Of a stretch of DNA of 49,538 nucleotides, positions 3,077 to 48,980 are shown one piece after another. The DNA lies in contig JAFZWA010000051.1 in assembly GCA_017617525.1 (NCBI GenBank), forward strand, positions 1 through 49,538, in the 5' to 3' direction. Every line of letters begins with the position of its first letter. The first letter of the stretch is position 1. The position numbers were made by a program, and so were the translations under genes. The notes below the pieces were generated by a model. It searched no databases. It saw nothing but the letters and a program-made list of their open reading frames with translations, and was not told where the DNA came from. The stretch comes from Clostridiales bacterium. Its GTDB lineage: Bacteria > Bacillota > Clostridia > Saccharofermentanales > Saccharofermentanaceae.

Positions 3077-3102
3077 AAAATTATCCCATACAAGTGCTTT
3101 TC

Positions 3103-3133
3103 AAGCGGAATCCCAAAAGGGCTTCCGCTTTTA
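3103..3133 (+). terminator. Intrinsic terminator of buk-pta-phosphoesterase
   Basis: AAGCGGAA (3103-3110) pairs with TTCCGCTT (3123-3130), enclosing CCC/GGG around AAAA, and runs into TTTT. A copy of the dispersed word (GTGCTTTT, 3094-3101) abuts the stem. Confidence 0.85.
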
Positions 3134-3180
3134 TATCATGTCGAAAACTTTCGGGATTTTGCCGACATGCTTCCGCTCGG

Positions 3181-3209
3181 TTGAATCGCCCTTTTAAAGA
3201 AAGTATAAT
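3181..3209 (+). promoter_or_regulatory. Promoter of the membrane protein-larBC cluster
   Basis: TTGAAT (3181-3186), 17 bases, TATAAT (3204-3209): a near-consensus sigma-A promoter 68 bases before the first gene of the cluster. Confidence 0.75.
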
Positions 3210-3224
3210 TACGATGTGAAAGTA

Positions 3225-3257
3225 TTCGGGAGATATCTCATTTTTTACCTTCCCGAA
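3225..3257 (+). promoter_or_regulatory. 5' leader hairpin before the lar cluster
   Basis: TTCGGGA (3225-3231) pairs with TCCCGAA (3251-3257). The loop holds a small palindrome (GAGATATCTC, starting at 3230) and a T-run. The hairpin lies in the transcribed leader and ends 5 bases before the AAGGAGG ribosome binding site (3263-3269). It could modulate translation; it does not resemble a riboswitch class I know. Confidence 0.45.
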
Positions 3258-3277
3258 GTTTTAAGGAGGCTAGGTTT

Positions 3278-3700
3278 ATGGCTTGTTTTTTAGTACCTAC
3301 AACTGAAGCGATCATCACAACGATCGCACAGAAAGCTCTTGCAAAGAAAGAAGCGAATATGGAGATCCATCACGAGGGTTCTTCCGAGATCGTAGAAAAG
3401 ACTAGTTTTTCCCGTAAGCTGAAATGGCTCAACAATATGCTCTGGGGCGGTTCCGCTCTTCTGGCGCTCGAGCACGTTTGGCATGGTGAAGTAGTACCGT
3501 GGTTTCCGTTCCTGACAGCGGCTTCGGATTCCTCTTCCCGTTCGGAAATGTTCCACGAGATGGCAACCGTCGGCGTAACGATGGCACTTCTCGTAACAGC
3601 TGTATGGGCAGGCATGGTCATCGTTTCTTCCCGTCTGGAAAAGCGCGCCGGCAAGCTCGCAGAGGTCGTTGTTGAAGAATCCAACGAAGAAAAGAAGTGA
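3278..3700 (+). CDS. Conserved small membrane protein upstream of larBC
   Basis: 140 residues, no named function. The N-terminus (MACFLVPTTEAIITTIAQKAL) is amphipathic, a middle hydrophobic stretch (LWGGSALLALEHVWHGEV) carries two histidines, and a clear membrane span follows at about 96-115 (VGVTMALLVTAVWAGMVIV). The tail is charged. AAGGAGG at 3263-3269 sets the start. It is followed 9 bases later by a second membrane protein and then larB, so a role tied to nickel-pincer cofactor, metal or substrate movement is an inference from position only. Confidence 0.75.
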   Translation: MACFLVPTTEAIITTIAQKALAKKEANMEIHHEGSSEIVEKTSFSRKLKWLNNMLWGGSALLALEHVWHGEVVPWFPFLTAASDSSSRSEMFHEMATVGVTMALLVTAVWAGMVIVSSRLEKRAGKLAEVVVEESNEEKK

Positions 3701-3709
3701 GGTGATCGC

Positions 3710-4029: not shown

Positions 4030-4785
4030 ATGAACACGAGCATTAAACAAATACTCGAATCACTTGAGCGCGGCGATATCACTTCGGAGGAAGCTCTTCT
4101 GAAGTTGAAGGCCGCGCCTTTTGATGACCTCGGATACGCGAAAGTGGATAATCACAGAAGTATCCGCCAGGGCGTTGCCGAGGTGATCTATGGCGCGGGA
4201 AAAACACCCTCTCAGATCATCGGAATCATAGAGTCCATGATCAAAAACGGGCAGGATCGCATCCTGATCACCCGCCTTTCCGAAGAGTCTGCAAACGAGG
4301 TCAAAGCCGCGCACGACATCACCTACTACAAAGAAGCACGCATCGGCTTTTACGGTGCTTTTCCGGAAGCAGACGGCATAGGTAAGATCGTCGTCGCGAC
4401 CGGCGGCACAAGCGATATTCCCGTCGCGGAAGAAGCCGCGATCACCGCGGAAAGCTACGGTAACGAAGTCGTTCGTCTTTACGACGTCGGTGTTGCCGGA
4501 CTTCATCGTCTTCTTTCGCATAAAGAAGAGATCATGTCCGCAAGCGTCATCATCGCGATCGCCGGTATGGAAGGAGCGCTCGCGAGCGTCATCGGCGGAC
4601 TTGCCGACTGCCCGGTCATCGCCGTTCCGACATCCGTCGGTTATGGTGCTTCTTTCGAAGGATTATCCGCACTGCTCTCGATGCTTAATTCCTGCGCCAG
4701 CGGCGTGTCTGTCGTCAATATCGACAACGGATTCGGCGCCGGTTATCTGGCCAGCATGATCAACCATATGGAGGCGAAAAAATGA
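4030..4785 (+). CDS. larB: LarB, pyridinium-3,5-biscarboxylic acid mononucleotide synthase
   Basis: 251 residues. LarB carboxylates and hydrolyses nicotinic acid adenine dinucleotide, the first step of the nickel-pincer nucleotide used by lactate racemase LarA and relatives. The C-terminal half is a PurE-like (AIR carboxylase) Rossmann domain: VVATGGTSDIPVAEEAA (about 117-134), GMEGALASVIGGLADCPVIA and PTSVGYGASF. The N-terminus (SIKQILESLERGDITSEEAL, then DDLGYAKVDNHRSIRQG) is typical of LarB. The start overlaps nothing but has only a weak ribosome binding site, so coupling to the gene before is likely. It overlaps larC by 4 bases (ATGA). Confidence 0.9.
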   Translation: MNTSIKQILESLERGDITSEEALLKLKAAPFDDLGYAKVDNHRSIRQGVAEVIYGAGKTPSQIIGIIESMIKNGQDRILITRLSEESANEVKAAHDITYYKEARIGFYGAFPEADGIGKIVVATGGTSDIPVAEEAAITAESYGNEVVRLYDVGVAGLHRLLSHKEEIMSASVIIAIAGMEGALASVIGGLADCPVIAVPTSVGYGASFEGLSALLSMLNSCASGVSVVNIDNGFGAGYLASMINHMEAKK

Positions 4786-8146: not shown

Positions 8147-9402
8147 GTTTTCGAGCGTTTCTCCCGCTTCCTCCTGAAAAGCTCTTCCGCGGCGATTCGG
8201 GTCTTGGCGACGACGTCTTTTTTCTTCGGGAAACAGTAGTAGAGGATATCCTTTTTGCCGATACAGATCACATCGCCGATCTCATACCAGAAGTAGTCGG
8301 AATAAAGGCTGTAGTTTTCCTTCGGCGACTGCGTGTAGTGAAGCCGTCCGTCGCATCCGTCGAGCACGAATCCTTCTTCGTCGTGCGTGAGGTGTCCGGA
8401 CCCGACCATGTAGAGCGATTTAAAATCCACGATGATGCCGATATCCACATCCGTGTCGAGCTTGTACGTTCCATCCTCGATCTCTTTTTTCACGCACTCT
8501 CTTTCCCACGCGTACCAGTCCGGAATATGCGAAAAGCACTCGCCCACGAGCTGTCCATACTCATCCAGCTCCCACGTTTTTCCGCACGCGTGACACGTCA
8601 GCGTCGTTCCTTTTCCTTCCATCTTCCCTTCTTCTTTACAGCACGCGCACTTATACAAAATCCGGTGCAATCCGTCCGCGCGGAAAGGCTCGTCGATCTT
8701 GACCTGATTCTCTTTCTGCCAAGTAAAATAGTCGAAGGAAAATGCCTTGTCGAGGATCTCGTCGATCTCCTCGACAGACTTACTCTTCACCTCTTCTTTT
8801 GACAGAAGACACTCGAGCTGTGCGGTGACTTTCACCTTTCGTTTCTGAAGGTTATTGTAGAGCGGATCTCTCGCGAAAGATCCATATGTGGTGATCATGA
8901 GAACAGGAGCGTGAAGCGCCTTGAAAAGCACTCCCATCCTGCGTGGAAGCGGCGTCGCCGTACCGTCGAAAGAGTAGCTCGCTTCGGGGTACATCAGCAC
9001 CGAAGTCTTATTCATTCCGATCGCGTAGCGCATGTCAGTGATGAGCGAAATATCCGACACGAATTTCTGCGTCGGGATGCATCCGAGATTTCGCATCAGA
9101 CCTTCTTTTCCGACGAAGCCGTCCGACGTGCAGATGATGTTGTATCTTTTCGGGAACATGATCTTCGATGCGATCTCCAGATCGAGGAAACTGCTGTGAT
9201 TCATGAGGATCAGGAAAGGTCCTTTTCCCGCCTTATCCATATTCTTTTTCGTGTAGGAAAACTTCACGGAACAAAGGTCCGGGATCGCCGCCGTTCGCAT
9301 GACGAGGCTTAAGACGCGGCTCGGTTTTTTCGGTTTTTTGTGATCCGGGCGCGGCAGCTTCATGACCTGATCAAAGTCCATCTCACACTTTTTGATCTTC
9401 AT
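8143..9402 (-). CDS. PlsC-like acyltransferase with zinc-ribbon C-terminal extension
   Basis: 419 residues from the ATG at 9402, chosen because AGGGGG lies upstream; a longer start at 9462 lacks a site. The acyltransferase HX4D motif is NHSSFLD (H69, D74), followed by a substrate loop YPEASYSFDG near residue 157, as in 1-acylglycerol-3-phosphate acyltransferases that make phosphatidic acid. Family members are usually about 200-250 residues. Here about 170 extra residues carry a four-Cys ribbon (CACC...CHAC) near 275-305 and an all-beta tail. No membrane span is obvious. The extension's role is unknown; cytoplasmic face of the membrane is the likely location. Confidence 0.8.
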   Translation of the reverse strand: MKIKKCEMDFDQVMKLPRPDHKKPKKPSRVLSLVMRTAAIPDLCSVKFSYTKKNMDKAGKGPFLILMNHSSFLDLEIASKIMFPKRYNIICTSDGFVGKEGLMRNLGCIPTQKFVSDISLITDMRYAIGMNKTSVLMYPEASYSFDGTATPLPRRMGVLFKALHAPVLMITTYGSFARDPLYNNLQKRKVKVTAQLECLLSKEEVKSKSVEEIDEILDKAFSFDYFTWQKENQVKIDEPFRADGLHRILYKCACCKEEGKMEGKGTTLTCHACGKTWELDEYGQLVGECFSHIPDWYAWERECVKKEIEDGTYKLDTDVDIGIIVDFKSLYMVGSGHLTHDEEGFVLDGCDGRLHYTQSPKENYSLYSDYFWYEIGDVICIGKKDILYYCFPKKKDVVAKTRIAAEELFRRKREKRSKT

Positions 9403-10082: not shown

Positions 10083-10942
10083 CCGGAAAAGATCTTTTCG
10101 AGATCATCTCGGATATCGACGACAATTACATCAATGAAGCACACGAAGAAGACTATTCGGCTCTCGATGCTTCCTCTTCAAAAGCACCTGTCTCGGCCGC
10201 TTCCGTGAAGCGCGCGAAACTGATCCGTTTCGTGCTTCCGACAGTAGCCGGTATCGCCGCGATCGCGATCGCTGTTTTCGGACTTTGGAAAGCAGGGATC
10301 ATCGGCGGAAAGAAGGATCTGATCAAACAGCAGTGTGATAGCGCCATCGTCGTCACCGGCGCGATCGATCCGGATCCGACCACGCCTGCCACAACTATGC
10401 CCATGAGTACGGGAGATATTACGACGACAACTGAAGGCATAGAACCACATGCCAGTGCGCAATGCAGTACCATCGCCGACTTCATCGAACCGACCGGAAA
10501 CGAAACGGACACCAACGGAGATCCGATCGTTATCATCGACACGGATGTCAGCTCTCTTGTCAACCTGACAGTTTCGTATCCGCCCGATGTCTCGTTCTAC
10601 GAAGATGGCAGTAGTGACGTTACCGAATTAGATGTAGTTCTCACGAACGTTGGTGATCATCCGCTTTATTACGAGAATGAATTCACTCTCTGCGTCAAAA
10701 ACGAAAATGGAGACGTCGTGCCTGTCGCCGCGTTTGTCAATGAGGGCGAAAACCGCTTGAACTGTTATGTCGGTCCGTCGGAATCCATTTCTATAATCCT
10801 GGATATTCACGATACTTATTCGCTTGATCCGGGAACGTATCTGCTCGTCGTTAACGTGCAGTATTTCGACGGAGAGATCGGCGACATCGATTCCGCAACG
10901 CTTCTCGAAAAATACACTATCGCGGGTGAGTTCAACATCTGA
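10079..10942 (+). CDS. Membrane anti-sigma factor with extracytoplasmic Ig-like domain
   Basis: 287 residues. The N-terminus (FEIISDIDDNYINEAHEEDY) resembles the cytoplasmic segment of Firmicutes ECF anti-sigma factors; there is no zinc HCC motif. One membrane span lies at about 50-72. A Thr/Pro-rich linker leads to a beta-rich domain (about 155-287: LDVVLTNVGDHPLYYENEFTL, LDPGTYLLVVNV) that looks like a diverged version of the Ig-like domain in the next gene. It ends YTIAGEFNI, matching YRIAAEFDL in that neighbour. Role as the sigma inhibitor is inferred from gene order and topology. Confidence 0.75.
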   Translation: MTGKDLFEIISDIDDNYINEAHEEDYSALDASSSKAPVSAASVKRAKLIRFVLPTVAGIAAIAIAVFGLWKAGIIGGKKDLIKQQCDSAIVVTGAIDPDPTTPATTMPMSTGDITTTTEGIEPHASAQCSTIADFIEPTGNETDTNGDPIVIIDTDVSSLVNLTVSYPPDVSFYEDGSSDVTELDVVLTNVGDHPLYYENEFTLCVKNENGDVVPVAAFVNEGENRLNCYVGPSESISIILDIHDTYSLDPGTYLLVVNVQYFDGEIGDIDSATLLEKYTIAGEFNI

Positions 10943-11520: not shown

Positions 11521-14451
11521 TTAAACGCGAAACGTCTCCTGCGGACCGAGATACGAGTCTGAAGGCGCTTTTCCCTTCTCGAAAAGCACCAGTTTCGTCA
11601 GCACAAAGTTCGGGCTGATCGCGGAGATCTCGATCGTGTTCTTTCCTTCTTTCAGATCCAGATCGACTTCGGTAACGCGAAGGTTATCGAGTACGCCTTT
11701 TTTCCAGAGTTCCTGTTCATCTCCGATCGCGAATCCGTCGGGGATCATGTTGACCTTTTTCAGTCTTCCGCCGTTACTTCCTACACCGACGAAAAGCTCC
11801 ATCAGACGTGTATTCGGATTGCTCGGATTCGTCATCAGACGAAGCGTGTATTTTCCATCCTTCGGAACGCTCACCTGATACATCAGAGTCGGTGCGTCTC
11901 CTGCCTTTTTAAACGTCACATCCTGCGGGTAGGCCTTCATTGCGGAAAGCCCTCTGTTGTAGTCCGGGATCACTTCGAATCTGCCGACTTTTCCCGGGAT
12001 GTTTTCGGTATAGTTTTCCGCGTCGATCGCGATGAATTCCGGCGCGATTCTCTCAAGAGATTTCATCACATCTGCGCTCTTTTTCAGCGGTACTCTTACC
12101 TCGATAAAAGCATCTGCTCCGAAGCGCACGATGATCTTTACTTCCGTGTTTTTCTTCGGCATTTTCGTTCTGTCGATCTTTACTTTCAAAGTCTTTTTCG
12201 AACGCGGTGATACCGTACCTGATGCAGGTGTGATCGTAAGACAGTTCGAGTCGCACTCGATCGTGTAGGAGATCTTCTTATCGCATCCGGTACTCAGCTC
12301 GATCTTTCCTTCTGTTGCGCAAGGATCGAGGAAAGAAGGAAGGACAAGTGCTTTTCGCGTCCAGAAATAACCTTCCGAGAATTGTTCCGTGCCCGGGATC
12401 GTCACGATCAGGCGGTCCTTGTTTCCGGGCATAAATGTATGCACGACCGGATACTGGCAGCCTTCTTCACACCAGTTCTTAAAGCCGATGTGCTCCGAAA
12501 GGCCCATCCCGTACCACATGCCGCCGTGGATCATGTGAAGCTCGTCCACCAGAGCCTGATCGAATTCCAGGCACGCGTTGATCTTCTCCGCGAGTGCCAT
12601 CGCGTATGTGCTTCCGATCTTCGCGTAAGCGTGATTCTGCGTAGTATAAAGCCACATCTTCTGCACGTTGAGATTCGCCATCAGCGGCAGATAAACGAGC
12701 TCGTAGAAACGGTACGACACGTTTCCGGAAAGCTTGGAGTAAAGACTTTCCGTCGTGCTCATCAGCTTCTCGATCATCGCGAGCATCTCTTCGGTTTCTT
12801 CAAACGCGAACGGCACATATACTTCGTCGTTCATGGCCTCGGTGCGGCGCGCAGACGTGATCCTGGTATATCCGAGCAGAAGATCCTTGACCTGCTTTTT
12901 CTGAGAGGCCGAAAGTGTTGTTCCGAAGTATTTCTCGACGAAAAGCTTCGTGTATTCGTGCGCGGCATTCTTATTGGAAGTGCCCCATTTATCGAAATCG
13001 TAAGCGAGATCGAGGAAGAACGAAAGCGGATATTCGGTGCTGAAAATGTCACCGACATTTACGATCCAGAGCTCTCTGATGCCGCAGTCATACGCGGTCG
13101 TCATCTGCTCCCAGACCTTCGGAAGATGTGAAGTGTTGAACCACTCGTAAGAGATCGGATAGCCGTGATAATCGAAGTGGTAGTACATGCCGTAACCGCC
13201 CTTGTGATCGCGCATTTCCCGGGTCGGCACAGTACGGAGATTTCCGTAGTTATCGTCGCAGAGCATGAGCGTCACGCCCTCAAGTTCCGGATCACCCTGA
13301 AGTCCCGGCGTCTTCTCGTCACCGTAGAAATACGGCTCGACTTCCTTATAGAGCGCGAGCATTCTCGGCACCTCGTCGAGGTCCTTGTTGACGTACTTTT
13401 TGATCAGGCGGTTCTGCGTCTTTAAGACTTTTCTCAGAAGATCAATGTTGTCCTTAAGCGTCGCTTCCTTGCCCATGATGGCCGTGTCCGCCTCGCCGCG
13501 CATGCCGACGGTGATGACGTTTTCAAACTTGCCGCTTCGGATCAAGCCGTCTTCCCAGAACTTCGTGATGCCCTTCTCGTTGCTGAGGAAATTCCAGGCA
13601 TCGCCGTAGATCGATCCCGGTCCGCGCAGATATCTGTACTCCTCGCCCTGACGCAGGCACGGCTCGTGATGGGACATGCCCATGACGACACCAAGCTCGT
13701 CAGCGAGTTCCGCGCTCGCAAGTCCCGGACCGTCGTTCGGGAAGATCGCCGACCACATCGCCGGCCACATGTAGTTGCCCTTGAGGCGCAAAAGCAGCTC
13801 GAAAACATGCTCGTAGCATTTACTGTTAAACCCGCCGAAGCGCTTGTTGCACCAGTTTCCGAATGCCGGCCACTCGTCGTTGATGAAGAATCCGCGGAAC
13901 CTTACCGAAGGCTCCTTGGAGATGAATTCGTATTTTCCGGGGATCGTAAACTCCGTTTTTCTTTCGGGCTTAACGTCCAGCCAGTCGATGAACGGCGATA
14001 CCCCGAGCTTTTCCGACAGCGCGAAGAGTCCGTAGATCGTGCCTCTTTTATCCGATCCCGCGATCAGAAGCGCCGCCTTATTCTTCGGCAAAAGCACTTT
14101 TCCCGGGAGTTTTTCGATGACTTTATGAAGATATACTTCACGCTTCCCGGAGATCACAGAAAGGTCGATCAGACCTGATCTTTCAAGATTTGTAAGAATG
14201 TTACTCGATTTGGCGGACTTCTTTTCAGCTCTGTTTTTGTCCATCAGGACGATGATCGGATACTCGATCTTAGATGATGCCTTTTCGGGAAGCTCGTTTA
14301 TATCGTAGACCTCCGGCGATGCGCCGAAGACTGCTTTCATGTCGCTTTGGATCTTTTCCGCGATCCTATAAATACCGGAAGGCAGCCCTCCGTCGATCAG
14401 GAGCGCTGCCTTTCCGTCTTTAATGATCTTTGTTGATAATTGAAACTGCAT
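11521..14451 (-). CDS. GH115 alpha-glucuronidase-like glycoside hydrolase
   Basis: 976 residues. GH115 enzymes remove (4-O-methyl)glucuronic acid side chains from xylan. Family blocks are RGFFINDEWPAFGNW (about 190), FNSKCYEHVFELLLRLKGNY, the WPAMWSAIFPNDGPG run, MGMSHHEPC and DCGIRELWIVNVGDI. A C-terminal beta-sandwich typical of full-length GH115 follows from about 780. There is no signal peptide, so it should act on imported oligosaccharides inside the cell. A GTG nine bases upstream (14460) is an alternative start; the only nearby ribosome binding site is AAAAGGA, better spaced for the ATG. Convergent with the Ig-like gene; a weak GCGC stem lies in the gap. Confidence 0.9.
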   Translation of the reverse strand: MQFQLSTKIIKDGKAALLIDGGLPSGIYRIAEKIQSDMKAVFGASPEVYDINELPEKASSKIEYPIIVLMDKNRAEKKSAKSSNILTNLERSGLIDLSVISGKREVYLHKVIEKLPGKVLLPKNKAALLIAGSDKRGTIYGLFALSEKLGVSPFIDWLDVKPERKTEFTIPGKYEFISKEPSVRFRGFFINDEWPAFGNWCNKRFGGFNSKCYEHVFELLLRLKGNYMWPAMWSAIFPNDGPGLASAELADELGVVMGMSHHEPCLRQGEEYRYLRGPGSIYGDAWNFLSNEKGITKFWEDGLIRSGKFENVITVGMRGEADTAIMGKEATLKDNIDLLRKVLKTQNRLIKKYVNKDLDEVPRMLALYKEVEPYFYGDEKTPGLQGDPELEGVTLMLCDDNYGNLRTVPTREMRDHKGGYGMYYHFDYHGYPISYEWFNTSHLPKVWEQMTTAYDCGIRELWIVNVGDIFSTEYPLSFFLDLAYDFDKWGTSNKNAAHEYTKLFVEKYFGTTLSASQKKQVKDLLLGYTRITSARRTEAMNDEVYVPFAFEETEEMLAMIEKLMSTTESLYSKLSGNVSYRFYELVYLPLMANLNVQKMWLYTTQNHAYAKIGSTYAMALAEKINACLEFDQALVDELHMIHGGMWYGMGLSEHIGFKNWCEEGCQYPVVHTFMPGNKDRLIVTIPGTEQFSEGYFWTRKALVLPSFLDPCATEGKIELSTGCDKKISYTIECDSNCLTITPASGTVSPRSKKTLKVKIDRTKMPKKNTEVKIIVRFGADAFIEVRVPLKKSADVMKSLERIAPEFIAIDAENYTENIPGKVGRFEVIPDYNRGLSAMKAYPQDVTFKKAGDAPTLMYQVSVPKDGKYTLRLMTNPSNPNTRLMELFVGVGSNGGRLKKVNMIPDGFAIGDEQELWKKGVLDNLRVTEVDLDLKEGKNTIEISAISPNFVLTKLVLFEKGKAPSDSYLGPQETFRV

Positions 14452-15801: not shown

Positions 15802-15915
15802 CAAGAGCGTGCCTTCGGAATTACTGTTTTCTATTTGCGCTTCCGTCTGCAATTAGAGGCTGTACGAGCTTTTTGGAAGCGGTTTCCGCGCGAAAAGCAC
15901 CTGTCGATTTTCGCA

Positions 15916-15978: not shown

Positions 15979-16641
15979 ATGCCGGACATCATCATTTGCG
16001 AAGACAATAAGGAGATCGGGGAACTCCTGAGTGCTTTTCTGAAGAAAGAAAACTATACCGTCGCGATTGCGCCGACAGGTGAACGCGCGCTGGAACTTTT
16101 CGAGAAGTATGGGGCAAAACTCGTCGTTCTGGACATCATGCTTCCGGGCATCGACGGATTCTCCGTGTGCAGCAAGATCCGTGAATCTTCCAATGCCCAC
16201 ATCATCATCGCGAGCGCCAGAGGCGACAAGGAAAGTAAGCTCGAGGGACTGTCTCTCGGCGCGGACGACTATGTCGAAAAGCCCTACGATATCGACATCC
16301 TGCTGGCAAAGATCCGCGGGATCTTTAAGCGCAAATACGCGATCGAGGAAGTCATCGACGGCGACCTGCGGCTGAATACCGTGCAGCGTACCGTCACTCT
16401 CGGCGGAAAACCTCTCACCATGACGGAGAAGGAATTCGCTCTTTTACAGCTTCTGATCGAAAACAAAAACACGACTTTGAAAAAGGAATATATCTTCAAC
16501 AACATCTGGGGATCCGACAGTGATTCGGAGATCCAGACGCTGACCGTGCACATCAAGTGGCTGCGCGAGAAGATCGAAGAGGATCCGAAGAATCCGAAGC
16601 ACATCATCACAGTCTGGGGCACGGGGTACCGCTATGAGTAA
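15979..16641 (+). CDS. OmpR-family response regulator
   Basis: 220 residues. Receiver domain (1-115) with acidic pocket E8/D9, phosphoacceptor D52 (VVLDIMLPGIDGF) and a Lys in EKPYD near 106. The C-terminal winged-helix DNA-binding domain (about 125-220) ends LTVHIKWLREKIEEDPKNP...VWGTGYRYE. CAAGGAGATAG lies just upstream of the start. It overlaps the sensor kinase gene by 8 bases, so the pair is translationally coupled. The likely target is the ABC operon at 19546, where a direct repeat spaced like an OmpR-family site is found. Confidence 0.92.
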   Translation: MPDIIICEDNKEIGELLSAFLKKENYTVAIAPTGERALELFEKYGAKLVVLDIMLPGIDGFSVCSKIRESSNAHIIIASARGDKESKLEGLSLGADDYVEKPYDIDILLAKIRGIFKRKYAIEEVIDGDLRLNTVQRTVTLGGKPLTMTEKEFALLQLLIENKNTTLKKEYIFNNIWGSDSDSEIQTLTVHIKWLREKIEEDPKNPKHIITVWGTGYRYE

Positions 16642-33774: not shown

Positions 33775-34014
33775 ATGAAGAATAGATTGAGAAGTGCTCT
33801 TGCCTGCTTTATATTGTCGTTTTTTGCGTATTTCCGCTATCTGCTGGCTGTTTCCGCCATCCTCTTTATCGGAAGCATCTTTTTCCGTCCGCTTCTTTAC
33901 GCAGGAATACTCGCTCTCGTCTTAGACGCCATCTTCTCTATCGGCATAACCGTGCAGGTCACAATGGTCGGTCCCGAATTCAAACAGGATTTCATCTTCC
34001 AGAAAGACCCTTGA
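33775..34014 (+). CDS. Small hydrophobic membrane protein
   Basis: 79 residues, two hydrophobic stretches (about 8-32 and 35-64) with a short basic turn. AGGAGG lies 7 bases before the ATG, giving good support for translation. No homology recognised and no neighbours that suggest a role: aspS is upstream and the metallopeptidase gene converges on it. Confidence 0.7.
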   Translation: MKNRLRSALACFILSFFAYFRYLLAVSAILFIGSIFFRPLLYAGILALVLDAIFSIGITVQVTMVGPEFKQDFIFQKDP

Positions 34015-34032
34015 CTTTTCAAAAAGAAGCTT

Positions 34033-34084
34033 AAACTGATTTAGATCATGCCGCCTTGGCTGCGTGATCAGTTTTCTGACGCTC
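34033..34084 (+). terminator. Terminator of the small membrane protein gene
   Basis: AAACT (34033-34037) and GATCATGC (34044-34051) pair with GCGTGATC and AGTTT (34072-34079, 34080-34084), leaving a six-base bulge; TTTT ends it. The stem overlaps the last codons and stop of the convergent metallopeptidase gene. Confidence 0.6.
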
Positions 34085-36244: not shown

Positions 36245-36247
36245 GTC

Positions 36248-36287
36248 ATTACCTCGTCTAAATTATGAACCGATTATACGAGGTAAT
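36248..36287 (-). promoter_or_regulatory. Palindromic operator around the metallopeptidase gene promoter
   Basis: ATTACCTCGT (36248-36257) and ACGAGGTAAT (36278-36287) are perfect 10-bp inverted arms 20 bases apart. On the minus strand the -10 box TATAAT (36278-36273) lies at the edge of the upstream arm, and the other arm contains the GAGG ribosome binding site 7 bases before the ATG. Since transcription should start between the arms, a DNA operator is more likely than an RNA stem. The -35 (TTGCCC) is poorly spaced. Confidence 0.55.
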
Positions 36288-36374
36288 CTTTCGGGGCAAG
36301 TGACAGTATAGAAATAATCAGGGAAGCCGTATCTTCCTCGGGAAAAGCACCGCTCAGGCGCCTAAACGCAAGTA

Positions 36375-38690: not shown

Positions 38691-39503
38691 TTACTCGTTT
38701 TCCTTCTTCGCGCGTTTCTGCTCTTCTTTGATGCCTTTCTTGACCTTCGTCTTATAATCCGAAAGGATCTCCTTTTCTTCCTCGTTGATCTTCTTCAGGA
38801 TCTCTCCCTGCGCCAGCTGTATCTCGTAGATCTCGTGCCAGCCGGCATCGATCTCAAGTTCCAGATTGTCGATCGCGGAACAAAGGTCTTGTCCGATGAT
38901 CTCTCTCTTTTTCTCTTCTCGTTCTCTTTCACGCTCCGGCGCCCTGCCTTCGGCCGTAAACACATACACAAACCCGGCAAAAAAGATCAGGCCGAGGATC
39001 AGCATCACCCACCCCGACATAAAGCGGGAAAATACGTAGAACAGAAGTCCGAAGATAAATAGTGCGAACATCGCCGGTTTCCCGGAAAATGTATCGGCAG
39101 AAATTTTCGGTTTCTTGTCGATCTCCGATTTATCGATAAGGTCCTGTGCTTTTCGCTTTTTCCAGCGAAGATCGGTAGATTTCTCGACGATCTCATCCTG
39201 CTTATTAAGGACCACAAGCTCCTTCTCGCAATAGGCCTCCACGTTTTCTTTCAGCTCGCTCTCCGGGAGGAGTTCCTTCAATCTCTGAAGGGCCGGATGC
39301 ACGGCCACGAGCTCGATATACTCCTTGCTTTCCATCTTTTTCGACTTGAAAAGCACTTCTCCCGCACTGCTGCAGTAGAAGCTTCGAAAGAAAGCACGAA
39401 GCACCGTCTGCGGATCGTCGTCGCGTGTAATGGGAACGTTCGTATAAAAGCCCTTTTCCGGCTTGTCGTTACTTGAAAATGAACCAGATTCAATATCGCT
39501 CAT
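38691..39503 (-). CDS. Coiled-coil membrane protein upstream of the hybrid kinase
   Basis: 270 residues. N-terminal half polar with YCEKELVVLNKQDEIVEKSTDLRWKKRKAQ-like helices, two adjacent spans near 141-180, and a long Glu/Lys/Arg-rich coiled coil (about 190-270). Its stop is 3 bases from the kinase start, so the two are probably cotranscribed and may interact. GGGGAT gives a moderate ribosome binding site; repeats of GAAATGGG lie just upstream. Family not recognised. Confidence 0.7.
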   Translation of the reverse strand: MSDIESGSFSSNDKPEKGFYTNVPITRDDDPQTVLRAFFRSFYCSSAGEVLFKSKKMESKEYIELVAVHPALQRLKELLPESELKENVEAYCEKELVVLNKQDEIVEKSTDLRWKKRKAQDLIDKSEIDKKPKISADTFSGKPAMFALFIFGLLFYVFSRFMSGWVMLILGLIFFAGFVYVFTAEGRAPEREREREEKKREIIGQDLCSAIDNLELEIDAGWHEIYEIQLAQGEILKKINEEEKEILSDYKTKVKKGIKEEQKRAKKENE

Positions 39504-39583
39504 AAATCCCCATTTCCCATTTCCTATTACCCATCAGACCATCCTTTTCAATTATACAGCAAAAGCACCGCGATTTAATTATT

Positions 39584-41366: not shown

Positions 41367-42116
41367 TCATGCGTTGGTTTCTTCCTTGAAAAAAGCTCTC
41401 AACGCATCCTTCATCTCATCCAGATGCTTCGTGAAGCAGTGGTCGTCTCCGTGGATCGGGACCAGCTTGGCATTCTTGTAGAGCTTCAGTGCTTTTTCCG
41501 CATACTCGAAAGGCACTGTCTCGTCCGCGTCTCCGTGGATGATAAAGACAGGGCCTTCATATCTTTCGATCTCGTCTTCCACATGGATCGTCTGCGCCAC
41601 ACGCACATAATCACCGGAAAGCACCACTCCCCTGTTTTCCAAAGTATTCGGGATATGCTTCGGATCGAAATTCATACCCAGAAGGTTTCCTTCTCTCGCG
41701 CCGTCCGGAATCATCCATGCAGGAGAAAGTGGAACGATCGCTTTAAAAGTGTCGGGGCACATGCCGCCGATCAGCATTGTCAGAAGACCGCCCTGGGAAT
41801 GACCGCACAGATAAAGATCCGTCACGAAATCCAGGGTCTTCGCGTAATTGACTACCGAAAGCGCGTTGGTCACCCACTTATAAAGCGTATGGTCTTTAAA
41901 CTCACCGTCGCTTTTGCCGTGGCCGTACATCTCTGCGCGAAGAACGGCTACGCCTGCATCATTCATGGCCTTTTGCGCCCCGATGATATGATCTTCTTCC
42001 ATATGTCCCGTGATACCGTGGATCAGGATACACAGCGGCCCCTTTTCCATGCCCTCCGGCATGTCCAGTTTTGCGTGAAGACGGATCCCGTCACTATCGA
42101 TATAAAACTCTTTCAT
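41367..42116 (-). CDS. Alpha/beta hydrolase of the cinnamoyl/feruloyl esterase type
   Basis: 249 residues. Oxyanion segment IHGITGHMEED, nucleophile elbow GHSQGG (Ser near 107), acid Asp in HGDADETVP and His in GDDHCF are intact. The insertion between strands and the NFDPKHIPNTL region closely resembles Lactobacillus cinnamoyl esterase LJ0536 by eye. Such enzymes release ferulate from arabinoxylan oligosaccharides. GAGG lies upstream of the ATG. Together with the adjacent GH43 it fits intracellular debranching. Exact ester specificity is not certain. Confidence 0.8.
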   Translation of the reverse strand: MKEFYIDSDGIRLHAKLDMPEGMEKGPLCILIHGITGHMEEDHIIGAQKAMNDAGVAVLRAEMYGHGKSDGEFKDHTLYKWVTNALSVVNYAKTLDFVTDLYLCGHSQGGLLTMLIGGMCPDTFKAIVPLSPAWMIPDGAREGNLLGMNFDPKHIPNTLENRGVVLSGDYVRVAQTIHVEDEIERYEGPVFIIHGDADETVPFEYAEKALKLYKNAKLVPIHGDDHCFTKHLDEMKDALRAFFKEETNA

Positions 42117-42364: not shown

Positions 42365-43156
42365 TTATTTTCTTGCCAGTTCCAGATCCATTATATCCTT
42401 TATCGTGATCGTTCCGCCATGACGATCGATCGCTTCTTCAATTCTACTGAAAAACTCATTTCTGATCTTTTCTTCGATCGCGATGTGATCCGAATATGTT
42501 CCCAGAAGCTGCGTGTATTCTTTTGCCGTGAACACTCTTTCCCGATAGAAAAGATAACACTTGATATCCTTGAAACCGTACTTTTCCGGGATCTCGGAAA
42601 TGCTCTTCGCGTCCTCTTCCGTGAATTGTTTTCTCGAACCGGATTTGATCCCGTAATGCTTGTTGTAGTACTCTTCGTAAAGCGCGTTGATCTCGCTCAC
42701 GAGTTCAGGCATATCCGAACTGATACACGGTCTGTTCGCGAATCTGGCAAAAGCACCGCCCTCTTTCAGGATCGAGTGCACTTTCGGATATCCGATCTCC
42801 TCCGGTACCCAGTGAAAAGCTGTCGCAGAAAAGACGAGATCGTACTTGTCTTTTTCAAGTTCAACGTCTTCAAACTTACCTGTAAGCACGCTGAACGTAT
42901 AGTCCTTAAACTTCTCTTTCAGAAGCTCGGAAAAGTTCTCGCCGTACTCGACTGCCGTGACTTCGCATCCGGTCTTAAGCACTGGAAGTGTCGCCTGACC
43001 ACTGCCGCTTCCGACCTCGACAACACGGCTGTTTTCATCGATCTTTACATAATCGAAGATCGCCTTATAAAGGTCATCCACATAGCCCGGACGCATCTTT
43101 TCATAAAGAGATACTTTGGTATCAAAAGTGGCTCCCAGTTCTTTTCGGTTATCCAT
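42365..43156 (-). CDS. Class I SAM-dependent methyltransferase
   Basis: 263 residues. Motif I is VVEVGSGSGQATLPVL (about 40-55), motif II/post-I includes VTAVEYG, and motif IV is DLVFSATAFHWV (about 108-119). The helical C-terminal domain has NALYEEYYNKHYG. It resembles ubiquinone/menaquinone-type methyltransferases acting on small molecules; the substrate is unknown. GGAGG is 5 bases before the ATG. Confidence 0.85.
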   Translation of the reverse strand: MDNRKELGATFDTKVSLYEKMRPGYVDDLYKAIFDYVKIDENSRVVEVGSGSGQATLPVLKTGCEVTAVEYGENFSELLKEKFKDYTFSVLTGKFEDVELEKDKYDLVFSATAFHWVPEEIGYPKVHSILKEGGAFARFANRPCISSDMPELVSEINALYEEYYNKHYGIKSGSRKQFTEEDAKSISEIPEKYGFKDIKCYLFYRERVFTAKEYTQLLGTYSDHIAIEEKIRNEFFSRIEEAIDRHGGTITIKDIMDLELARK

Positions 43157-43171: not shown

Positions 43172-43855
43172 TCAGTCTGCATGCCGCAGATCGTTCAAAG
43201 TTTCTTCCGTCTCGACCGGGATCCAGTGACCTTCCACACAGATCTTCGGACCGAGCTCACGGATCTTATCCGCAAGCTTCATGCTGCGTGCTTTATCTTT
43301 CGGTCCATCCGGGAATTCACTGCATGCCGAATCCCCGAGGAAAAGCACTTTGTCGTCACAGATATAAACAAGTGTCGCGTCATCGGTATGCGGGGAAACG
43401 CTTTCCAGTATCTTCACTGTACACCCGCCGAGATCAAGTGTCATCTCTCCCTCAAAAACCATATCCGAAGGTACGACGATCACTTCCTTGTTTCCCGCAT
43501 ATTCTTCTCGAATACTCTCTGTGATCGAAAGAAATTCCGCGGGTCCGTTTGTCTCGATCTTATTCTTCCATTCGACGAGATATTCATTCGTTCTTTTATT
43601 TGAAAGGCACAGCCCGTGCACCGCGTGCATCGCAAACGTGTGGTCCCAGTGCCAGTGCGTAAGGACCGTAAGATCCGGAAGCGGAAGTCCTTCTTTTTCC
43701 AGAAGCTCGTAGAACTCATTTACATGAAGATCAGAGTGTCCCGCGTCGATCGCAAGGCTCCAGTTCTCGCCCTTTACGTAACCGATATTCGGGCGGTCTC
43801 TTCTTTCTTCATGGGTCATGTACCATATATGTTCAGACAGTTTTTTCAGTTCCAT
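43172..43855 (-). CDS. Metallo-beta-lactamase-fold hydrolase
   Basis: 227 residues from the ATG at 43855 with AGGAGAG upstream. HWHWDHTFAMHAVHG (near 70) is the HxHxDH metal motif, and SPHTDDATLVYICDDKVLFLGDSA supplies the later His and bridging Asp. A final His is in CVEGHWIPV. The family includes hydrolases of thioesters, lactones and similar; no specific substrate can be assigned. 15 bases downstream of its neighbour in the train. Confidence 0.85.
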   Translation of the reverse strand: MELKKLSEHIWYMTHEERRDRPNIGYVKGENWSLAIDAGHSDLHVNEFYELLEKEGLPLPDLTVLTHWHWDHTFAMHAVHGLCLSNKRTNEYLVEWKNKIETNGPAEFLSITESIREEYAGNKEVIVVPSDMVFEGEMTLDLGGCTVKILESVSPHTDDATLVYICDDKVLFLGDSACSEFPDGPKDKARSMKLADKIRELGPKICVEGHWIPVETEETLNDLRHAD

Positions 43856-45182: not shown

Positions 45183-45596
45183 TTATCTTTTCTTAAATCT
45201 CATTACCACATACTGTTCCGAGAAACCCAAGCTCTTCCAGAACGCAACACCTGCCTCGTTCCACGGCAGAACATCCAGTTCGATCGTGTCTGTTCCCAGA
45301 TACTCAAGCAACGCCTGAAAAGCACTCTTCCCATAGTGTTTTCTACGCTGTTCCCGGTCGATGTAAAACTGCCTCAGATAAAGTGGTTCCGCGGTTCTGT
45401 CGACCAGCGCGTATCCGACGATCTCGTCCTCTTCCTTGAAAAAGTACGTGTCATAATCGCCCTCGAGAAAACCTTTCATCCGCTCCGTAAGCTGTGAAAG
45501 ATCCATCGGGTTGCTGCTTCTTTCATCCTCGATCAGACACTTATTCATGCGTGCCAGAACTGAAACATCTTCAATTGTGCATTTCTCGATTTTCAT
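45183..45596 (-). CDS. GNAT-family acetyltransferase
   Basis: 137 residues from 45596, where the start overlaps the upstream stop by ATGA; a longer start at 45623 would run into that gene. Core motif DREQRRKHYGKSAFQALLEY (acetyl-CoA binding) and C-terminal WNEAGVAFWKSLGF are typical. Translational coupling with the gene upstream is expected. Substrate unknown. Confidence 0.85.
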   Translation of the reverse strand: MKIEKCTIEDVSVLARMNKCLIEDERSSNPMDLSQLTERMKGFLEGDYDTYFFKEEDEIVGYALVDRTAEPLYLRQFYIDREQRRKHYGKSAFQALLEYLGTDTIELDVLPWNEAGVAFWKSLGFSEQYVVMRFKKR

Positions 45597-46677: not shown

Positions 46678-46683
46678 CCTTCA

Positions 46684-47073
46684 TCAGTTCACGAACCGCA
46701 GCAGATACCCGTCCGGATCCTGTACGAGGAACTCTTTCTGTACGACGACCTCATCGTTACTTCTATAGTTACTGACCTGCATTTCACGGAACGGTTTGAT
46801 CCCCGCATCCAGAACTCTCTTGTAGATAGCGTCCACGTCAGAGACCGTCATCTCAAAGTTGATGCCTCTTCCGAAAGGATACTCAAGTTCTCCGACACTC
46901 CAGTGTCCGTTTTCCTGTTCGAGCATCATCTGGTTACCTTCCAGCGAGACAAAGATGAACTTGTTTTCCGGTCTTTCATACTCGATCGTAAAGCCCAGGA
47001 TATTCAAGTAGAAATCCTTCGTACGCTCGATATCCGTTACCGCTAATTCCGGAATTAAAGAATTGAACTTCAT
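46684..47073 (-). CDS. VOC-superfamily protein (glyoxalase/bleomycin-resistance fold)
   Basis: 129 residues, one full VOC unit of two beta-alpha-beta-beta-beta modules: ELAVTDIERTKDFYLNILGFTIE ... GYLLRFVN. The fold is shared by glyoxalases, fosfomycin and bleomycin resistance proteins and dioxygenases. Candidate metal or ligand positions cannot be settled by eye. AAGGAG lies before the ATG, overlapping the previous stop. Confidence 0.85.
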   Translation of the reverse strand: MKFNSLIPELAVTDIERTKDFYLNILGFTIEYERPENKFIFVSLEGNQMMLEQENGHWSVGELEYPFGRGINFEMTVSDVDAIYKRVLDAGIKPFREMQVSNYRSNDEVVVQKEFLVQDPDGYLLRFVN

Positions 47074-47085
47074 TCGTGCTTCTCC

Positions 47086-47529
47086 TTATTCGACTGTCCA
47101 CTCCGTCCAGTCAATATGATTGTACTTCATGACTTCATCCGCATGCTTCATGCCCAGCTTCTCATAGAAAGGAATGGCCTCCTCATTTGCGATCAGATAC
47201 ACGGCGATATCCTTCTCGCCGCCGGCCAGCTCATGCGCCATTTTCATCATCTTCGTCGCGATCCCCTGGCGCTCATACGCTCTATCTACACCCAGGTCCG
47301 TGATGTAGAGCCAATAGCAATAATCCGTCAACCCGAAAAGCACTCCTACGACGAGCCCTTCTTCGTTTCTCGCCACCAGGCTGATCGTCACCGTGTTCAC
47401 AAGCTTCGGGATCCTTTCGTAGAAACGCTCCTTCGGATACTGTGATCCCAGATCCGTCCTCTTCAGAAACTCGATGTATTCTTCTGCCGAGATGCGTTCC
47501 TCGCAGATTTTTATCTCTTCGTTTTTCAT
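47086..47529 (-). CDS. GNAT-family acetyltransferase
   Basis: 147 residues from 47529 (a GTG at 47538 is an alternative; neither has a strong site). VDRAYERQGIATKMMKMAHEL is motif A and AIPFYEKLGMKHADEVM motif B. Small single-domain GNAT with a Trp/Glu-rich end. Substrate unknown. Confidence 0.83.
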   Translation of the reverse strand: MKNEEIKICEERISAEEYIEFLKRTDLGSQYPKERFYERIPKLVNTVTISLVARNEEGLVVGVLFGLTDYCYWLYITDLGVDRAYERQGIATKMMKMAHELAGGEKDIAVYLIANEEAIPFYEKLGMKHADEVMKYNHIDWTEWTVE

Positions 47530-47541
47530 ACTAACCACACT

Positions 47542-48252
47542 TCATTCTTTTTCCAGATCTATTATCTCAAATAATCTGTCCGTTGAAACAATATTGTACG
47601 TCGACCATCCGCTCTCATCACGCTCGTTTTTCTTGTTGAGCCACGCAGACTTTATTCCGGCGTTATACGCTCCGACCACATCGGTCTCGTAGATATCTCC
47701 GACAAAAACGATGTTCTCTCTGACCTCATTCGGGTTTTCCTGAAGCGCTGTTTCTATCGCTAGTTCGAAGAATTCCCTGCTGGGTTTGATCTTGCCGAAA
47801 TCCGCGCTGGACCAGAGGTGATGGAAGTAGTTCCCGATCCCGAATCTGTTCAGCACTTCCAGAAGTGCTTCCGCGCGAAAACCACTGTTCGACAGTACAT
47901 ACATCGGTATATTCTTCCGGCTGCATGTTTGAAGGAATCTCTCGATCTCCGGATCCAGTTCGAATTCATTACAGCGCATCAGAAAATCCGCTTCTTCCTC
48001 TGCACTCATATCCACTTTTTCTCCGCCGAACTTCTTTGCGAAAAGCGGCAGTTCCACTTTTACGAAAGGATATTCTTCCCCGCTTCTATGCTTCTCAAGC
48101 AGCACCTGAAAAAGATCCTCGCCGTATTTCTTCATGTCCTCAAACGGACATTTATCCTGGTAGTAGTTCTCCCAGAACACATAAAGACCACGGTTAAAAT
48201 CCATGCTCCTTGTGTTCAGAAGCGTCTCAAAATAATCGAATATCAGAACCAT
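47542..48252 (-). CDS. HAD-superfamily hydrolase (haloacid dehalogenase/YjjG-like)
   Basis: 236 residues from 48252, where GGTGG precedes the ATG. Motif I is IFDYFETLLNT: the nucleophile Asp is present but the acid/base Asp at +2 is Phe, as in haloacid dehalogenase-type enzymes. Motif II is VLSNSG, motif III the Lys in KPSREFFELA, motif IV VFVGDIYETDVVGAYNAG. Cap helices lie at about 15-85. Phosphatase or dehalogenase activity on a small molecule is likely, not specified. 14 bases after the upstream GNAT gene. Confidence 0.83.
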   Translation of the reverse strand: MVLIFDYFETLLNTRSMDFNRGLYVFWENYYQDKCPFEDMKKYGEDLFQVLLEKHRSGEEYPFVKVELPLFAKKFGGEKVDMSAEEEADFLMRCNEFELDPEIERFLQTCSRKNIPMYVLSNSGFRAEALLEVLNRFGIGNYFHHLWSSADFGKIKPSREFFELAIETALQENPNEVRENIVFVGDIYETDVVGAYNAGIKSAWLNKKNERDESGWSTYNIVSTDRLFEIIDLEKE

Positions 48253-48266
48253 TACTATACCACCAA

Positions 48267-48980
48267 CTACTTCTCCAGCCAGTACACCGCGTAATCCGTT
48301 TCCGGAACAAATCCGTGTCCGATCGCCATCTTCGATGACATCGGATTCTGCGCGTCCCAATGCACGGTAAATCCTTTATCGTGGCTCTGTCTGAGCATCT
48401 CGAAAACACAGTGATCAGCAAGTCCTTTTCCCCTGTGTTCCTCATCCGTAAAAACATCCAGTTCCACGTGATCTTCTAAAGTCAGAAAACTCGATGACGC
48501 AGATACGACCTGTCCGTCAAACAGTACGACCGCGCCGGCCGCTCTATTAGAAAAGTCCTGATAATCCGCGTATCCTCTTCCGTGATCGAAAGGGTGCTTT
48601 TCAAAGATTTCTTCCGTAAAAGCACTGATGCTGTACCCCTCCGGAAGTGGTTTCAAATTCTTATCAGACGCAGCACAAAGTGGCTTCATCAGTTCTCTTC
48701 GAAGGATGAACTTGATCGGAAGTTTACGGATGTATTCTTCCCATTCCGAACTCATGCACACCAGTCTCGAATTATAGATCAGTTCCGGGTTTTCCGAGAT
48801 GATCTTCTCGTCCGGTTTTCCGCACAGATACGTAAATACCGTCTTATAGATCGCACCACCTGGATACGAAAATACCGACCCGAGTTTTCCTTCTTTACAT
48901 GCTGTAAGGATCAGCGGCTCAACCGAAAGAACACCGCTTCCATCCTTTTTCCAGACCTCATAAATACCCTGTGTTTCCAT
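48267..48980 (-). CDS. GNAT acetyltransferase (PF12746-type)
   Basis: 237 residues from 48980, where AGGAG is 5-6 bases upstream; a longer start overlaps the upstream gene. The N-terminal domain (1-125) is family-specific; the GNAT core has ELDVFTDEEHRGKGLADHCVFEML (R-G-K-G-L-A loop) and VHWDAQNPMSSKMAIGHGF. Members of this family often include a partially conserved substrate domain of unknown target. Two dispersed-word copies (48594, 48618) are within this gene. Confidence 0.82.
   Translation of the reverse strand: METQGIYEVWKKDGSGVLSVEPLILTACKEGKLGSVFSYPGGAIYKTVFTYLCGKPDEKIISENPELIYNSRLVCMSSEWEEYIRKLPIKFILRRELMKPLCAASDKNLKPLPEGYSISAFTEEIFEKHPFDHGRGYADYQDFSNRAAGAVVLFDGQVVSASSSFLTLEDHVELDVFTDEEHRGKGLADHCVFEMLRQSHDKGFTVHWDAQNPMSSKMAIGHGFVPETDYAVYWLEK

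Follow-up and report, generated by a model that had tools for sequence, protein, structure and literature searches.

The window analysed here, a whole stretch of 49,538 nucleotides (49.5 kb) from a Clostridiales genome, carries 34 copies of the octamer AAAAGCAC, 18 on the plus and 16 on the minus strand, the first starting at position 3094 and the last ending at 48625. The genes buk-pta (230-2592) and aspS (31604-33406) contain none. Count, span and these two word-free loci agree with an earlier note made from the letters of this DNA. The same note had described a ten-base word, S-AAAAGCAC-Y, with seven intergenic copies; the preceding S is found in 29 of the 34 copies, the trailing Y in 32 and both in 27, and a crude ORF caller places six copies, not seven, outside called genes. 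The copies and the longest word-free stretch are as follows.

3094..3101, minus, AAAAGCAC, outside called genes
4355..4362, minus, AAAAGCAC
8532..8539, plus, AAAAGCAC
8924..8931, plus, AAAAGCAC
10180..10187, plus, AAAAGCAC
11582..11589, plus, AAAAGCAC
12348..12355, minus, AAAAGCAC
14090..14097, plus, AAAAGCAC
15893..15900, plus, AAAAGCAC, outside called genes
16031..16038, minus, AAAAGCAC
18177..18184, minus, AAAAGCAC
19935..19942, plus, AAAAGCAC
21916..21923, plus, AAAAGCAC, outside called genes
22965..22972, minus, AAAAGCAC, outside called genes
23705..23712, minus, AAAAGCAC
24007..24014, plus, AAAAGCAC
25515..25522, minus, AAAAGCAC
26409..26416, plus, AAAAGCAC
29458..29465, minus, AAAAGCAC
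29899..29906, minus, AAAAGCAC
30989..30996, minus, AAAAGCAC
30997..36342, no strand, longest AAAAGCAC-free stretch of the window, containing aspS
36343..36350, plus, AAAAGCAC, outside called genes
36598..36605, minus, AAAAGCAC
38111..38118, minus, AAAAGCAC
39146..39153, minus, AAAAGCAC
39349..39356, plus, AAAAGCAC
39561..39568, plus, AAAAGCAC, outside called genes
41489..41496, minus, AAAAGCAC
42749..42756, plus, AAAAGCAC
43341..43348, plus, AAAAGCAC
45318..45325, plus, AAAAGCAC
47336..47343, plus, AAAAGCAC
48594..48601, minus, AAAAGCAC, first half of a close inverted pair
48618..48625, plus, AAAAGCAC, second half of the same inverted pair

The DNA of aspS matches a 6.4-kb locus of another rumen MAG at 86.9% identity, and none of the DNA next to that match in the MAG locus has a counterpart here.

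The reported excess over chance is borne out by 100 dinucleotide-preserving shuffles of the window, which contained the word 1.14 times on average and four times at most; Markov models of orders 2-6, including order 5, with the word masked, predict 2.5 to 4.0 copies. The whole genome (2.47 Mb) contains 1,163 copies (593 + 570) against 101 of the reversed word (48 + 53), and a 372-kb genome sample contains 198, against Markov expectations of 21.1 (order 3) and 36.9 (order 4); the word therefore occurs well beyond the window and is not accounted for by low-order Markov models, and so withstands the two objections that the earlier note had named, with order 5 covered on the window. By the statistic used, AAAAGCAC tops over-representation among all 8-mers in that sample. 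Perfect cores number 220 and singly mismatched 8-mers 712, as raw counts next to published USS and DUS counts based on 9- or 10-letter cores, and their excesses over the Markov model are about 194 and about 209, respectively; the consensus appears softer than that described for USS and DUS. Close copies are not in excess, with 11.2% of 196 gaps shorter than 200 bp and 11.0% expected.

AAAAGCAC sits at the core of a longer, asymmetric motif that spans about 22 bp and has the positions T-8, C-6, Y-5, C-3, K-2, S-1, S0, AAAAGCAC, Y+9, K+10, T+12 and C+13. Little sequence is shared between copies outside about -11 to +13, the extended motif is alike for intergenic, sense and antisense copies, and the flanks are also kept around several near-miss cores. 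A free expectation-maximisation motif search fell into codon periodicity; a fixed-number version took its place, and its refined flanks are biased by the starting motif; the unbiased test is flank scoring, in which a model trained outside the window gave the 34 window copies a mean of +3.3 bits, against -3.9 for 340 same-composition words. In species G003, the fixed-number search drifted to a G/C-run.

The word extends through the genus. Proteins of G030, a genome of the same family, are 77-82% identical to those of named rumen loci, two of them labelled Saccharofermentans, so the family probably lies close to Saccharofermentans; a search of the assembly for 16S gave no match. Each of the other 22 genomes of the genus that were searched either has AAAAGCAC in abundance or carries its flanked form, with 113-536 copies per Mb, and 18 of the 23 genus genomes lie above 200; 36 family and order relatives contain 45-186 copies each, and the maximum among 390 other genomes of the class is about 175 per Mb, as read by eye from the table. 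Three species are also rich in AAATGCAC, a one-base core dialect of AAAAGCAC, with 664 (G010), 594 (G011) and 577 (G017) copies; the remaining 20 genomes of the genus have 53-157. The flanks of G000 recur around AAATGCAC in G010 (p 4e-16 from 43 sites) and G011 (p 7e-11 from 28 sites), and the result for G017 falls short of significance (p 0.05 from 5 sites). Between orthologues of different species, AAAAGCAC is exact in 68 of 243 aligned places and has one mismatch in 33 (the pairs are not independent), and same-composition words at 10,361 places are exact in 2,149 and singly mismatched in 2,760; at 28%, conservation of the word is no higher than that of the comparator GAAAAGCG (40/135). A separate tag word was sought in six groups of sister genera and, in a further scan, around TCGAAAAG and TCGCGAAAA; no clear extended motif emerged in the groups covered. 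Several genera of the family have an excess of TCGAAAAG, TCGCGAAA, present in 14 one-kb bins of G023 where 1.3 are expected, may be another word in genus g2, and the flank test gave a faint signal in two of the six sister groups, both from genus g5, with p below 0.05 (16 and 2 sites).

Two kinds of DNA are poor in the word. The 32,090 bp that surround 11 relaxase genes in five genus species contain no AAAAGCAC, against 14.7 expected without correction for base composition; prophage DNA was sought as a second mobile control, and portal genes gave no matches in the 23 genomes. The type IV pilus operon, read in 17 genus species, contains three AAAAGCAC copies vs 51.9 expected and is devoid of the word in 14 of them. 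Conservation alone is a weakened explanation for this depletion, because the variable genes pilN, pilO and two minor pilins contain a single word in 28.3 kb, whereas genes of 50-60% identity carry 0.21-0.33 words per kb. AAATGCAC shows no clear depletion in the pilus operons of G010 and G017 (3 vs 4.7 expected). The comEC gene of G000 contains two words, so competence genes are not all word-free.

The com and type IV pilus genes that the earlier note suggested looking for are present. A full-length PilB-type ATPase was found in 22 of the 23 genus genomes, ComEC in 21 of 23, ComEA in 21 of the 22 searched and DprA in all 22 searched. The gaps fall in incomplete assemblies: G018 gave no ComEC or ComEA match, G001 no ComEC match, and G011, with 1,256 copies of AAAAGCAC and AAATGCAC together, no full PilB match. 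This machinery is unspecific, as relatives without the word possess it too: ComEC occurs in 12 of 12 family genomes from sister genera, and the pilus operon in both sister-genus genomes read (G030 and G033). Charge and alignment revealed no electropositive pilin among the pilus-operon pilins, whose soluble net charge ranges from -14 to +5 in the genus, and hence no ComP-like receptor. A 647-aa protein adjoins the operon. In the pilus tree, whose deep branches are weakly supported, G010 and G017 stand apart, and the AAATGCAC dialect is incongruent with this tree.

Considering these patterns, we hypothesize that AAAAGCAC is the core of a putative DNA uptake sequence, analogous to DUS and USS, that arose independently within a single genus of Clostridia; from the sequence evidence, we give this reading a probability of about 0.65. 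A cell-surface receptor, probably a pilin or a pilus-tip protein of the type IV pilus, would bind double-stranded DNA bearing the motif, pilus retraction together with ComEA and ComEC would draw a strand inside, and DprA and RecA would recombine it. Tagged DNA would be imported more often than untagged DNA, and tagged alleles would therefore displace untagged ones, so that the tag would slowly build up among the resident genes, a process of uptake drive. Mobile DNA that had only just arrived would carry no tag, and a changed receptor could alter the core and so give rise to a new dialect. Points against the reading are the presence of the machinery in sister genera that lack the word, the absence of an electropositive pilin among the operon pilins, the near absence of AAAAGCAC from the pilus operon, the separate positions of G010 and G017 on the weakly supported pilus tree, the apparently softer consensus, the conservation between orthologues no higher than that of GAAAAGCG, the ordinary spacing of copies and the machinery genes without matches in some incomplete assemblies.

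Several alternatives were weighed against this reading. That the word stems from biased codon or amino-acid use, from a terminator or from copies of a mobile repeat is scarcely credible, even though TCGAAAAG is in excess in several of the family's genera, one frame holds 53 of the 86 sense copies and one pair makes a hairpin (L094 9992/10007). Synonymous-codon shuffles yield 11.2 +- 3.0 sense and 9.6 +- 3.4 antisense copies, compared with 86 and 80 observed; codon use is refuted as a sufficient cause because both strands stand about eightfold above the shuffles, which upholds the earlier argument from reading frames, and copies in genes occupy all six frame classes. Of the 198 sample copies, 166 are inside called genes and 32 outside; this distribution, the short shared segment and the ordinary spacing of copies also speak against this group of explanations. 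A recognition site for a methyltransferase, a restriction enzyme or a BREX-type system, enriched as HIP1 is in cyanobacteria, is very improbable: the motif is non-palindromic, has graded flanks over about 22 bp and tolerates mismatches in the core, and genomes generally avoid restriction sites instead of accumulating them.

Words read on a single strand or bound by resident proteins come closer. Chi words, read by AddAB as recombination hotspots, are short, over-represented, asymmetric and different between genera, which speaks for such a reading, and Chi and KOPS alike are asymmetric octamers with many copies per genome that favour the leading strand. With that strand inferred from GC skew only, the sample from G000 has 88 copies on the G-rich and 127 on the C-rich strand, and 17 genus species pooled have 201 and 316 (p 5e-7), unlike same-composition words in G000, which show no such lean (1558 vs 1448). 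The earlier note had dismissed both signals for their strand balance; the dismissal holds on other grounds, since the word is not balanced and leans mildly to the C-rich strand, opposite to Chi, and this polarity makes KOPS unlikely as well. There is also no coding-strand bias (86 sense vs 80 antisense), and the informative flanks, spanning about 22 bp, are longer than in any Chi known to us, which leaves a Chi-type hotspot improbable. Somewhat less so, if still unlikely, is a site for a chromosomal DNA-binding protein without a role in uptake (nucleoid-organising, segregation or repair), selected at about a thousand places in the genome. A motif of about 22 bp is long enough for a protein binding double-stranded DNA, the density is twofold higher between genes than within them (1.08 vs 0.49 per kb), and a resident role would likewise explain the absence from new mobile DNA. 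However, the strand polarity is too weak for segregation signals, the nearly fivefold range of densities within the genus and the core switch in three species would be odd for a housekeeping protein, and no protein known to us has a site of this kind.

If AAAAGCAC is instead the core of an uptake sequence, its wider meaning can be graded in turn. To our knowledge, sequence-chosen DNA uptake is regarded as peculiar to two Gram-negative families, and none of the literature matches listed, in a scope without preprints and most subscription papers, describes such a sequence for Clostridia. On balance, we favour the view that a DNA-uptake-sequence system has evolved here independently for the third time, and for the first time in a Gram-positive-type lineage, and that it has two or more core dialects within the genus. 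It is doubtful whether, in addition, the pilus operon is kept tag-free, so that competent cells would seldom import foreign or broken uptake genes; this clause is less likely because two AAATGCAC species carry AAATGCAC there near the expected number. A third origin in Clostridia, if true, would show a further phylum to be capable of evolving uptake tags, and would offer a new comparison on the origin of tags, as drive or as selection for self-DNA. With 23 genomes and two dialects, a receptor search by co-variation is feasible, and DNA bearing the 22-bp motif may help to transform recalcitrant gut Clostridia.

Among known words, HIP1 of cyanobacteria is a dispersed, over-represented palindromic octamer. 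The likeness to HIP1 proposed in the earlier note extends to dispersal and over-representation; the comparison is otherwise weaker because AAAAGCAC is not its own reverse complement and has long asymmetric flanks and a core dialect. The likeness to Haemophilus and Neisseria uptake words appears closer, as a likeness of sequence: it takes in genome-wide and genus-wide dispersal, independence from codon use, a dialect, absence from relaxase DNA, and machinery. Inverted pairs acting as terminators are a frequent, non-defining feature of DUS and USS; judged from the gaps below 200 bp, such co-option is not seen for AAAAGCAC. In Neisseriaceae, DUS (GCCGTCTGAA) forms dialects within the family that are few letters apart and track the core-genome tree, according to part of the text of PMC3630211, and its distribution is atypical in integrated conjugative elements, according to part of PMC7371117; the DUS reader, in the portions of the sources available, is the minor type IV pilin ComP. 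The genus studied here differs in having no ComP-like pilin among the operon pilins, a dialect that departs from the pilus tree and no excess of close copies, and resembles Neisseriaceae in that its dialects are few letters apart and its mobile DNA is atypical, with no copies near relaxase genes. The Pasteurellaceae USS (AAGTGCGGT, ACAAGCGGT) falls into two subclades whose core letters differ and whose AT-rich flanking segments are kept with some differences, according to part of PMC1626085. AAAAGCAC is another word in another phylum, apparently softer in consensus, known here from DNA letters, and its informative flanks are chiefly upstream T and C positions; like USS, as far as that partial account goes, it is a short core within a longer, more weakly flanked motif, present in many copies that include coding sequence.

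The 8-mer AAAAGCAC was counted 34 times in the 49,538 bases of the window, 18 of them on the plus strand and 16 on the minus, exactly as the earlier note had stated. One hundred dinucleotide shuffles of the window gave a mean of 1.14 copies and a maximum of 4, and Markov models of order 2 to 6, with the word masked, predicted 2.5 to 4.0. The extended form S-AAAAGCAC-Y described in the same note holds for 27 of the 34 copies and fails for the rest. The whole source genome (2,474,766 bases in 64 contigs) carries 593 forward and 570 reverse copies, versus 48 and 53 for the same letters read backward. In a sample of 371,857 bases, composed of 20 fetched stretches and the window and including 2,956 N, AAAAGCAC tops all 8-mers for over-representation, with 198 copies observed versus 21.1 and 36.9 expected at orders 3 and 4. 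As far as this counting was carried, the word was neither Markov-like in number nor confined to the window, the two outcomes that had been set as refuting it. The same sample (L085-L104 and the window) holds 16 copies of the unrelated ACATAGAACA / TGTTCTATGT versus 0.45 expected, perhaps a regulatory site, and at L094:8003-8068 three copies of AAAAGCAC lie at 29-bp spacing in near-identical units.

Codon bias does not explain the word, as had been proposed. In 307 genes from a crude greedy ORF caller (92% coverage), 86 sense and 80 antisense copies were found, both far above the 11.2 ± 3.0 (largest 20) and 9.6 ± 3.4 (largest 19) obtained in 100 within-gene shuffles of synonymous codons. Every frame class holds the word, 53 of the 86 sense copies lying in one frame, and its density per kb is 1.08 outside called genes and 0.49 inside. 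The strand balance seen earlier stands approximately, with a mild lean to the strand that is not G-rich: 88 copies on the G-rich strand versus 127 opposite in source-genome stretches oriented by GC skew, and 201 versus 316 (p 5e-7) across the 17 species of the genus with fetched loci, a count that includes the dialect word for three species and excludes 20 copies in ambiguous stretches. Same-composition control words in the source genome fall 1,558 on the G-rich strand and 1,448 opposite, and the core variant AAAAGAAC leans the other way from AAAAGCAC (70 and 37). Chi and KOPS lie mostly on the leading strand; an identity with either is disfavoured because AAAAGCAC leans mildly away from that side.

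Two of the 198 sampled copies lie too close to an end, and a flank profile was built on the other 196. Information spans about -11 to +13, and all columns beyond hold less than 0.1 bit. Upstream, the preferred letters are T at -8 (106 of 196), C at -6 (127), T/C at -5 and C at -3 (103), followed by G/T at -2 and C/G at -1 and 0; downstream they are C/T at +9 (172), G/T at +10, T at +12 (89) and C at +13 (93). The leading flank letters are alike in intergenic (32), sense (86) and antisense (80) copies, and weights trained without the window gave its 34 copies a mean of +3.3 bits, versus -3.9 for 340 same-composition words. The variant core AAAAGAAC (109 copies versus 52 expected) keeps these flanks, as do the one-letter changes AAAAGGAC, AAAAGCGC, AAAAGCTC, GAAAGCAC, AAAAGCAA, AAAAGCAT and AAAGGCAC, and AAAATCAC on 13 copies, where keeping means a mean score that clearly exceeds the -3.5 scored by random sites. 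The flanks are not kept in one-letter variants altered at core position 2, and not clearly in those altered at position 3. Graded flanks and tolerated core variants thus point to a site of about two helical turns, probably nearer to the double-stranded DNA site of a protein than to a fixed octamer.

Codon alignments of orthologues from the pilus loci of 11 species of the genus and the comEC loci of four indicate how the word persists. Where one species has AAAAGCAC, the orthologue matches exactly in 68 of 243 cases and with one mismatch in 33, versus 2,149 and 2,760 of 10,361 places for same-composition words; these are ordered pairs and not independent. The comparator GAAAAGCG is exact in 40 of 135, and AAAAGAAC has 52 exact and 21 single-mismatch cases of 218, a deficit of single mismatches like that of AAAAGCAC. 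This deficit suggests upkeep, or gain and loss of the word as a whole, rather than drift.

Fifty-nine genomes were searched (the source, 22 of its genus, 12 of the family and 24 of the order). Copies number 296-1,402 in genus genomes and 45-186 in the others, some order relatives matching the genus in the ratio of word to reversed word at low counts (109 versus 14 in G058, 119 versus 21 in G046). Per Mb, with sizes rounded except for the source genome (470), the 23 genus genomes hold 113-536 copies and 18 exceed 200; among 390 class genomes from outside the genus, the top density judged by eye is about 175 (G154, 297 in 1.7 Mb). By count alone G007, G009, G010, G021 and G022 lie within the class range, and all five carry source-type flanks (p 1e-3 to 8e-14). 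The flank test gives p <0.05 in 18 of 19 genus groups, the source genome being the training set; on one site each, G012 fails and G016 passes. Of six sister groups, two reach this level (16 and 2 sites); both belong to genus g5, whose few copies have slightly motif-like flanks. In g5 (L132-L138, L177-L181) TCGAAAAG is over-represented (63 versus 24.5 in G030), and in sister genus g2 (L187-L190) TCGCGAAA is raised in G023 (14 one-kb bins versus 1.3).

Word discovery in fetched sequence returned the one-base core dialect AAATGCAC in G010 and G011. It numbers 664 in G010, 594 in G011 and 577 in G017, versus 53-157 in the other 20 genus genomes and 20-66 in 14 order relatives, the search covering the genus and these relatives. 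Its flanks resemble those of AAAAGCAC in G010 (43 sites) and G011 (28 sites); in G017 (5 sites) the likeness is not significant. G010 and G017 sit apart on a tree built from four pilus proteins (G011 has no pilus locus to place), a separation that would speak against a simple dialect history; support for the deep branches of that tree is weak. In most genomes of the genus AAAAGAACY outnumbers its reversed control (G019 has 739 copies); G007 is an exception (81 versus 85). G022 (L113-L116, L168, L197-L200) has overlapping dispersed words, jointly about GGGAATACCCAGTAGAA, with ATACCCAGTA in 16 one-kb bins of 180 kb versus 0.2 expected and CCCTTGGCAT in 7 versus 0.1; G009 shows a rise in GGGAATACCC only (5 versus 0.2). 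These words could belong to a family of short repeats or represent a further tag.

A PilB-type ATPase (E below 1e-130) is present in 22 of 23 genus genomes (not found in G011), ComEC in 21 of 23 (not found in G001 and G018), ComEA in 21 of the 22 searched (not found in G018) and DprA in all 22 searched. In the source genome the ATPase genes head a run that we take, from gene order and resemblance, to be pilB-pilT-pilC-pilM-pilN-pilO with four short pilins and an adjoining prepilin peptidase; a family search gave a name to the T2SSE domain only. Across 17 genus species pilT, pilM and pilB are 93-100% identical to those of the source and pilN, pilO and the pilins 38-91%. In most species of the genus, and in the sister G030, the tail of a minor pilin (L157:5705-6211) shows a zinc-ribbon-like C-x2-C/H ... 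C...C pattern. The operon also occurs in one genome each of g5 and g2, both without the word; machinery first and specificity later would fit. Two regions poor in AAAAGCAC are:

L157:5151-14403 and its counterparts in 16 species of the genus: type IV pilus operon, nearly free of AAAAGCAC
Window 30,989-36,343 (30997-36342 between copies): longest AAAAGCAC-free gap of the window, holding aspS

The pilus operons of 11 genus species hold 3 copies in 105,528 bases, and the remainder of the same loci 36 in 114,160. Over all 17 species with the operon, which are related and not independent cases, 3 copies (G021, G003, G019) compare with 51.9 expected from genome densities. Of 449 other 9.3-kb windows in the source genome, 12 lack the word. 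The motor genes are very conserved, and the variable genes of the operon are also word-poor (1 in 28.3 kb). The dialect, with 3 copies versus 4.7 expected in the G010 and G017 operons, is not clearly depleted. In the source sample, genes for an F-type ATP synthase together with a T2SSE ATPase also lie in gaps, as does a comM-dprA-topA-trmFO run, in which comM and trmFO are putative names from domain hits; comEC contains two copies. Incoming alleles of uptake genes could only harm the competence of a competent cell, and tags nearby would therefore be selected against; that this explains the word-poor operon is a guess.

A search for relaxase genes covered 15 genomes of the genus and 8 order relatives. 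It gave 11 hits in the genus, in five species; the loci around them (GC 44-54%) contain no AAAAGCAC in 32,090 bases, versus 14.7 expected from the density of each genome alone. The 16-kb source stretch around its relaxase gene has low GC at its start, and no copy occurs in it before 89,718. The window aspS matches a 6.4-kb locus of a rumen MAG at 95% protein and 86.9% DNA identity, and the rest of that locus has no DNA match to the window; we infer that the gene was probably acquired.

An uptake sequence would be the simplest account of AAAAGCAC, and we put the probability that the word works like one, as a candidate member of the DUS/USS class, at roughly 0.65. The main rival holds that a chromosomal binding site, to which it assigns no purpose, lies behind the word. 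Among the literature matches listed, Neisseriaceae and Pasteurellaceae are the only groups with described uptake sequences (PMC5031613, PMC12040237, PMC13020248, PMC1852404, PMC6370729). Close inverted pairs are frequent in DUS and USS, whereas AAAAGCAC has no excess of them, and its consensus is softer than the published USS consensus. In Neisseria, an atypical distribution of uptake sequences serves to find mobile elements (PMC7371117). Dialects like the pair AAAAGCAC and AAATGCAC are described for Neisseriaceae (PMC3630211), and the cores of two Pasteurellaceae subclades have different letters, with AT-rich flanks retained (PMC1626085).
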